From positions 2,046,001 through 2,110,000 of the forward strand of contig CP042428.1 of NCBI GenBank assembly GCA_024207135.1: a DNA stretch of 64,000 nt. The letters are read 5' to 3'. The translations under genes were made by a program, and so were the position numbers. The notes beneath the pieces are model-generated. The model saw only the letters and a list, made by a program, of their open reading frames with translations, did no database searches and was not told the origin of the DNA. This document shows, piece by piece, positions 57,224 through 57,999 of this stretch. The DNA is from Arthrobacter sp. C2. Lineage in GTDB: Bacteria; Actinomycetota; Actinomycetes; Actinomycetales; Micrococcaceae. Positions within the stretch are counted from its first letter, which is position 1. Each line of letters opens with the position of its first letter.

Positions 57224-57285
57224 GTTCACACGTGGTTGCCGGGCCCCGTACAGCCTGTGCATAGATTGGAATCCTAGAGTAATAA

Positions 57286-57376
57286 CTACCTCATGAAGGT
57301 GCGAGTGATGAGAGCACCGGTCGGATACACGGCAGATTCCCCCCCTGGCCTTCCGACCGGTGCTCAACCATTTAAG
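57286..57376 (+). ncRNA. Candidate small RNA, C-rich loop hairpin element 1
   Basis: A TAGAGT box at 57275-57280 is followed by CTACC, five variable bases, AAGGTGCGAGTGAT (57296-57309), then a perfect 14-bp stem (57312-57325 with 57352-57365) and TTTAAG. Inside the stem a short GGC/GCC helix presents a loop with seven consecutive C residues. The same order of sequence and structure recurs at 57729. The region is also open as a peptide frame from ATG 57293, but the second copy cannot encode the same peptide, so conservation is at the RNA level. Confidence 0.6.
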
Positions 57377-57515
57377 CCCGGCGGTGCCCGGCGCGCGGCG
57401 CCGAGACGAGGCATGGCGCATCCCCTCGACAACGTCGGAACTTCGGACCAAACTGAAGATACCGGTCGCGCCGGTGAATCGGGCGACATGATCTACGGAC
57501 CAAGGAGCACGCGTG

Positions 57516-57668
57516 ATGAGTGAAAAACCAATCGGCGACGAAGAAGATGTCACGGCAGAAGAAGCTGCCGCAGAGCCGGAACATGTTGCCAGCGCCCACG
57601 ACGAGGCGCTGGTCGAGGAATGGGAAGACGAGTCCTTCCCCGCCTCCGACCCCCCGTCGAATTACTGA
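57516..57668 (+). CDS. Small acidic protein, unrecognised
   Basis: This 50-residue protein is one I do not recognise. It is very acidic (runs of Asp/Glu, e.g. DEEDVTAEEAAAEPE) and ends with the distinctive motif EWEDESFPASDPPSNY. The ATG at 57516 has AAGGAGC 9 bases upstream, one of the better ribosome sites in the window, which is good evidence that this short frame is real; a GTG at 57513 is also in frame. There is no membrane segment. It lies exactly between the two C-rich-loop elements. Confidence 0.72.
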   Translation: MSEKPIGDEEDVTAEEAAAEPEHVASAHDEALVEEWEDESFPASDPPSNY

Positions 57669-57728
57669 CTCTCGGCTGACTGACAACCAATCCTCAGCCC
57701 ACACTCAGCTTGGCCTCTTAGGCTGAAG

Positions 57729-57816
57729 CTACCTTCTCAAGGTGCGAGTGATCAGAAGAACCGGTCGCGGCGGAGTTTCACCTCCTTAGCCGTCACGACC
57801 GGTTCTTCACTTTAAG
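57729..57816 (+). ncRNA. Candidate small RNA, C-rich loop hairpin element 2
   Basis: TAGGCT at 57719-57724 precedes CTACC, five variable bases, AAGGTGCGAGTGAT (57739-57752), a perfect 13-bp stem (57755-57767 with 57796-57808) and TTTAAG. An inner CGGC/GCCG helix displays a loop with CACCTCC, complementary to ribosome-binding sites. Relative to element 1 the outer stem differs at two paired positions and both changes keep the pairing. The inner ORF stops after 17 codons and has no start. Confidence 0.6.
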
Positions 57817-57999
57817 AACGCCGGCACCGAAGGTGGGCCTCTCCCCGGGTCACAAAGCAGCGGATTTCGCTTCTCCCCAGCGTGCCGCGCCCGCCGTCGT
57901 GGATTATCGGCGCCTCGGGGGACAAGAATGGATGCGAATGACGCCCAGAAAGCGTCATGAGATTTTCCGTCCCACCAATTTCAGGAGAACACCACCACC
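57817..57999 (+). other. Leader region of the aldo/keto reductase gene
   Basis: This 183-base remainder of the gap holds no gene. It includes an inverted repeat ATGACGC-7-GCGTCAT (57938-57958), 42 bases before the start codon, that could be an operator, and an AGGAGA ribosome site. Confidence 0.4.

Follow-up and report, generated by a model that had tools for sequence, protein, structure and literature searches.

The question raised by this locus is what is encoded by two similar structured elements around a small acidic gene of Arthrobacter sp. C2, in a window of 64,000 nucleotides (the whole stretch of DNA that was analysed). The elements look like members of a large multicopy small-RNA family which is specific to Micrococcaceae and apparently undescribed. 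The family is widely conserved, and it has a nearly fixed promoter geometry, complementary arms in a 5' mini-hairpin, a covarying long stem and an intergenic placement. Probably the two elements are paralogues, and each of them, with a promoter and a terminator to itself, encodes a trans-acting RNA of about 90 nt; the RNAs would be induced by an OmpR-type regulator and repress by anti-Shine-Dalgarno pairing. The transcripts of about 90 nt, with their starts and ends, we infer from the sequence.

The preliminary description had reported two elements with a spacing of 443 nucleotides, and the boxes, CTACC, AAGGTGCGAGTGAT, stems and TTTAAG were all found again at the same coordinates (Table 1), the perfect stems being 14 bp in copy 1 and 13 bp in copy 2. 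With up to two mismatches allowed, the 14-mer AAGGTGCGAGTGAT had only two matches in the window, both exact; shuffled windows gave a mean of 0.32 matches, and two or more matches occurred in 4 of 100 shuffles. The hairpins alone had fold z values of -6.7 (copy 1) and -8.1 (copy 2) against shuffles, and the stretches of 92-95 nt had -4.9 and -4.65. No sigma-70 consensus site was found by the promoter scan. The only call of the terminator scan was a 5-pair stem inside copy 2, neither hairpin being recognised in full, and the T-tract TTTAA behind the hairpins is short. The covariance model cited in the table, R1, describes the 5' part of the family and was made from 86 sequences with 41 positions.

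Table 1. Features of the two elements and of the gene between them (positions of the window).
Feature	Position	Strand	Evidence
Upstream direct repeat TACAG-N6-CATAG, PhoP-like box pair, 11-bp period, copy 1	57249..57264	+	family profile CACAG..CACAG
-10 hexamer TAGAGT, copy 1	57275..57280	+	family TANNNT position
Candidate small RNA type A, copy 1, about 90 nt, both ends predicted	57286..57378	+	R1 57.3 bits; fold z -4.9; type-A alignment
CTACC	starts 57286 (copy 1), 57729 (copy 2)	+	sequence
5' mini-hairpin, copy 1: UACCU 57287-57291 with AGGUG 57297-57301	57287..57301	+	pairing in 86 sequences
Near-invariant motif AAGGTGCGAGTGAT, copy 1	57296..57309	+	exact matches, family conservation
Terminator-like hairpin, copy 1, loop region CCCCCCC	57312..57365	+	14-bp stem 57312-57325/57352-57365; covariation
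TTTAAG after hairpin	57371-57376 (copy 1), 57811-57816 (copy 2)	+	
Small acidic 50-aa ORF, between both RNAs	57516..57668	+	tblastn relatives beside type-B copies
Upstream direct repeat CTCAG-N6-CTCAG, copy 2	57693..57708	+	family profile
-10 hexamer TAGGCT, copy 2	57719..57724	+	sequence, R1 match
Candidate small RNA type B, copy 2, about 90 nt, both ends predicted	57729..57818	+	R1 43.7 bits; fold z -4.65; type-B alignment
Near-invariant motif AAGGTGCGAGTGAT, copy 2	57739..57752	+	exact match
Hairpin, copy 2, 13-bp outer stem + CGGC/GCCG, apex CACCTCCTT	57755..57808	+	stem 57755-57767/57796-57808; covariation

The 4.56-Mb genome of the strain carries five exact copies of AAGGTGCGAGTGAT on one strand: the pair of the window and three more near 2.50 Mb. 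The reversed-pattern control gave 0. Each of the five comes with the -10 box, the 5' segment, a GC-rich hairpin and TTTAA. Among 59 genomes (relatives and the strain itself), 29 contain exact AAGGTGCGAGTGAT: 15 of 15 in the same genus (the strain included) and 14 of 22 other family members. No exact copy, and no match of the control pattern, was found in the 22 genomes outside Micrococcaceae. A 24-mer pattern with 3 mismatches was present in 195 of 295 Micrococcaceae genomes and 27 of 32 genera (control matches: 2), and R1 matched 266 of these 295 genomes and 31 of 32 genera, with 1-9 copies per matching genome and many genomes with a single copy. The listed genomes of one genus, g6, had no R1 match. 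The element, whose recurrence in related genomes the preliminary description had put forward for checking, is therefore kept in them. Across the order, 22 of 297 genomes matched R1, all 22 within Micrococcaceae, and among the listed Micrococcaceae genomes of that search G016 and G068 were without match. Across the class, 5 of 296 genomes matched, three of them in Micrococcaceae; the two others, 1.3-Mb genomes with 23.1 and 22.1 bits, were judged to be chance matches. R1 was partly built from genomes which were then searched in the family, order and class scans.

Several sets were used for the family. There were 168 distinct copies, all of which had passed a filter that required stretches resembling CCT and the -10 box, so that -10 conservation is inflated in this set; alignment A1 contains 86 representatives of them, with three rows of odd spacing excluded. 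A coding match with one mismatch (L006) was excluded from all sets, L048 was reassigned from type A to type B, and L058, a type-B copy which runs into N, is absent from the type-B alignment A3. Among the matches listed (80 of 106), the element occurs in Paeniglutamicibacter, Arthrobacter, Glutamicibacter, Micrococcus, Citricoccus, Zhihengliuella, Kocuria and others. Three of these 80 stretches had titles outside the phylum. One, L207, lacks both the -10 box and the hairpin and was rejected as a chance match. The other two, L206 and L274, have the element in full and appear to be contigs that were misassigned or are contaminants; L274, with 69% G+C, is titled Vibrio cholerae 35D and is probably contamination or a mislabelled record.

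The most conserved part of the family is the 5' segment and not the C-rich loop, a point which, like the five copies in the genome, was absent from the preliminary description. This segment is conserved far above loop or stem, and the linker CGAGUGAUGA is almost invariant across the family, though the searches select for both. In front of the linker lies the mini-hairpin YRCCU..AGGUG, in which 98.6% of 430 cells were paired in the 86 sequences, compared with 30-63% in slid controls. Its changes are one-sided only (U-G/C-G, A-U/G-U), with no two-sided change, and its loop length is variable. The linker might provide a common seed, or it might be bound by an RNA-binding protein. A search for its complement that allowed up to 2 mismatches gave 49 sites versus 9 in the control; the exact sites were the family itself only, and no target was identified. 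In G069, three copies (L162-L164) have two consecutive AAGGTGCGAGTGATG units after a single 5' hairpin, like a repeatable module.

Behind the linker there is one hairpin, or two in several genera. By a simple minimum-free-energy fold criterion a C-rich loop was present in 121 of 168 copies (42 of 61 in the same genus and 79 of 107 elsewhere), and C-run loops recur across genera. Two types occur in the same genus. In type A the stem is GAGCACCGG..CCGGTGCTC and the loop usually has a C run. In type B the apex CACCTCCTT matches the 3' tail of 16S rRNA, a tail sequence that occurs 5 times in the genome of the strain, and CCTCCTT is retained in three loci of other genera (L100, L104, L111). The C-rich loop is not always present or free: it is missing in 47 of the 168 copies by the fold criterion, and in the predicted fold of copy 2 the apex CUCC pairs with GGAG, leaving CACCTCCTT partly paired.

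Compensatory change in the stem had been proposed from the two window copies only, and it holds in larger alignments. In 42 type-A sequences two-sided change was found at 4 pairs and in 21 cells, where the shuffles averaged 4.1 cells; 0 of 500 shuffles reached 21 cells and 4 of 500 reached 4 pairs. The 16 type-B sequences, three of them from other genera, showed two-sided change at 6 pairs and in 13 cells (shuffled mean 2.1), which 0 of 500 shuffles reached for pairs or for cells. In both types the shuffles ignore relatedness. Slid versions pair far less, those of type B at 27-55% compared with 94% in the true register; sliding by -2 also gave 6 two-sided pairs, but with 8 cells and 27% pairing versus 13 and 94%.

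In the promoter region, 87 of the 95 exact copies taken without filtering have TANNNT at 22-23 nt before GGTGCGAG, with 3.2 expected, and in the family profile two CACAG-like boxes, 11 bp apart, are located upstream of the -10 box. In 165 copies the weighted mean of matches to the CACAG repeat was 5.81 of 8, versus 3.29 in shuffles; these do not correct for the use of the same data to define the motif. The boxes lie outside the copy filter, and self-similarity peaks at 11 bp. PhoP of M. tuberculosis is described to bind direct repeats of TCACAGC with a 4-bp spacer (PMC4832192), and this TCACAGC-N4-TCACAGC box has the CACAG boxes and the 11-bp period of the family promoters. The MtrA motif has an equal 11-bp period and a different sequence (PMC6265350), so that MtrA, judged by this published motif, would fit the CACAG boxes less well than PhoP. 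By analogy, control of these promoters by an OmpR-type two-component regulator is plausible: a PhoP-like response regulator might bind CACAG-N6-CACAG and induce several copies together. The RNAs would then repress mRNAs, with a C-rich loop, either CCCCCC or the CACCUCCUU of the 16S tail, pairing with ribosome-binding sites, and the 5' ACCUC could perhaps pair with such sites as well.

The preliminary description had also suggested that selection acts on RNA and not on an open reading frame. This is supported by the covariation of the stem, by the position of the copies, since 0 of 96 distinct copies lie wholly inside an ORF of at least 150 aa, and by broken GTG frames. Called ORFs of this size partly overlap 9 of the 96 copies, two of them by 77-78 of 85 nt (L062 on the same strand, L097 antisense), and the 292-aa ORF which starts inside the motif of L062 is taken as an over-long start call. 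A peptide reading was rejected, for the ATG/GTG frames in the motif are broken, with a stop two codons after the GTG in L111 and insertions elsewhere.

The neighbouring genes are relevant to the idea that some or all copies act in cis, as leaders or attenuators of the downstream gene or as 3' terminators of the upstream gene, which we regard as improbable. By crude GC3 ORF calls, 37 of 60 copies of the same genus have same-strand genes on both sides, which speaks for a cis role. Outside the genus, the same calls gave for 36 copies the (upstream, downstream) strands (+,-) in 10, (-,-) in 10, (-,+) in 7, (+,+) in 7 and (unknown,+) in 2, which makes 20 downstream genes convergent and 17 upstream genes divergent. 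Because the flanking orientations vary in this way, a leader or attenuator role for all copies is judged unlikely. Ten neighbour proteins scanned at eight loci also belong to varied families, namely MFS (2), HD, aldehyde dehydrogenase (2), glyoxalase, transposase-like, tannase, acyl-CoA dehydrogenase and aldo/keto reductase, and the copies carry their own -10 box. Type B is the more constant case: in three genera it is flanked by the acidic ORF on one side and by an aldo/keto reductase gene on the other, while the neighbours of type A vary. The reductase is beside 12 of 16 type-B loci of A3, in three genera, and is downstream of type B in the same genus as well as at L104 and L111, which belong to two further genera; copy 2 of the window ends about 180 nt before it. 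The acidic 50-aa ORF, which ends with SFPASDPPSNY and had no match in Pfam or NCBIfam, is likewise beside 12 of 16 type-B loci of A3, in four genera, and has tblastn relatives in L100, L104 and L111. Because both genes recur beside type B, the acidic ORF is a gene under conservation, and type B may act in cis. Repeats that act as DNA, either mobile or as an operator site, with no RNA product, would explain the near-fixed distance of the motif from the -10 box, and one copy in the genome of the strain has a transposase-like neighbour with HTH and integrase-core domains (L005:1633-3012). We give this explanation hardly any credit, as it does not account for the compensatory stem change or the variable loop length of the 5' hairpin, for the varied flanks outside type B, or for the 1-9 copies per matching genome.

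Another explanation, which is possible but unlikely, is that the RNAs serve as protein decoys or scaffolds. The 5' hairpin with CGAGUGAUGA would bind an RNA-binding protein, either to titrate it or as the place where a chaperone loads, and the long hairpin would be only a terminator. The dominance of the 5' segment in conservation is in its favour, subject to the search bias given above, together with the retention of this segment in copies without C-rich loop and the tandem AAGGTGCGAGTGATG units of G069. It is opposed by the retention of CCTCCTT in type B of the three loci in other genera and by the recurrence of C-run loops over genera. Very improbable is a descent from 6C RNA, with the copies as degenerate members. 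6C RNA has two hairpins, each with a C-rich loop, and the 2019 work of Mai et al. is said to show that it works via these loops. The family shares with it the actinobacterial hosts and hairpins with C-rich loops; the window copies have one such hairpin whereas 6C RNA has two, and several other genera of the family have two as well (for example L089 and L136). The search with the Rfam 6C model that had been proposed as a check gave no match: RF01066 (gathering score 47) had 0 matches in the window, none in 14 family loci at E up to 1 and none in 12 further loci at gathering. The genome of the strain had no RF01066 match either. In G024 a match above the cut-off is on contig C11 and a family copy separately on C14, and the family motif was absent within or beside the 6C match in 12 6C loci. 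The likeness to 6C RNA, noted before with reserve about membership, thus stands as an analogy of working principle, and membership, by the Rfam model, does not.

No Rfam 15 family matched at gathering in the window, and none matched the element in the tested loci. Pseudomon-Rho, RMST_9 and sR2 appeared at E 1.4-3.7 in a 701-base region and were rejected as chance, as was ctRNA_pGA1 (E 0.35 in L019), a chance likeness of a GC-rich hairpin. RF01066 matches below the cut-off were located elsewhere in G001, G003, G006, G012 and G018; these may be chance, and the same search also gave matches in Caulobacter among its control genomes. One of the weak 6C matches (L044, G001:C4 near 189053; 40.7 bits, cut-off 47) follows a repetitive stretch of AAGTCGGCT units. 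In G019, of the genus g6 without the family, a 6C-like locus of 46.3 bits (L041) has an apparent CTAGAGT box and several successive C-rich loops.

Small RNAs in sibling sets are known from other bacteria, and LisR, the regulator of one of them, is OmpR-type. In Listeria monocytogenes LhrC1-5 are five near-identical sRNA copies that depend on LisRK; redundant CU-rich (UCCC) motifs, which lie in loops and in a single-stranded stretch, serve them to block translation (PMC4132741). The family is likened to LhrC by its description and not by sequence: both are multicopy with C-rich motifs, and two-component control is shared if the promoter reading is right. In contrast to LhrC, the hairpins of our family diverge while the 5' linker is near-invariant, and the phylum is another one. 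In Streptococcus pneumoniae the response regulator CiaR controls five sibling csRNAs, 87-151 nt long, that are able to pair with start codons as well as ribosome-binding sites (PMC4507080). They too were compared by description; they are of another phylum, and a near-invariant linker is not mentioned in the consulted part of that paper. By analogy with LhrC and csRNAs, the family members are likely sibling sRNAs which would block ribosome-binding sites.

Among the papers listed, no description of the family was found, including under the strings GGUGCGAGUGAU and GGTGCGAGTGAT. A transcriptome paper on Arthrobacter reports four sRNAs (PMC6696678), and it is possible that a family member was detected earlier among them. 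For actinobacteria, another paper states that sequence searches identified no Hfq homologue (PMC6789036). It is a speculative and somewhat doubtful extension that the 5' module is a loading site for an RNA-binding protein, the actinobacterial counterpart of Hfq, and that the family would be an interchangeable set of sRNAs which use this protein and are induced together by a PhoP-like regulator. A near-invariant module with swappable hairpins offers a handle on how actinobacteria handle sRNAs and on the signal that uses them, and this in soil bacteria which can be cultured.

Two loci had unusual arrangements. In L108 (G036:C5:179119-179639) four family copies are in tandem, about 160 nt apart, and their hairpins differ. 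In L033 a SAM-IV riboswitch (363-482, 78.4 bits) lies upstream of a family copy, and a cspA match below the cut-off follows the copy.
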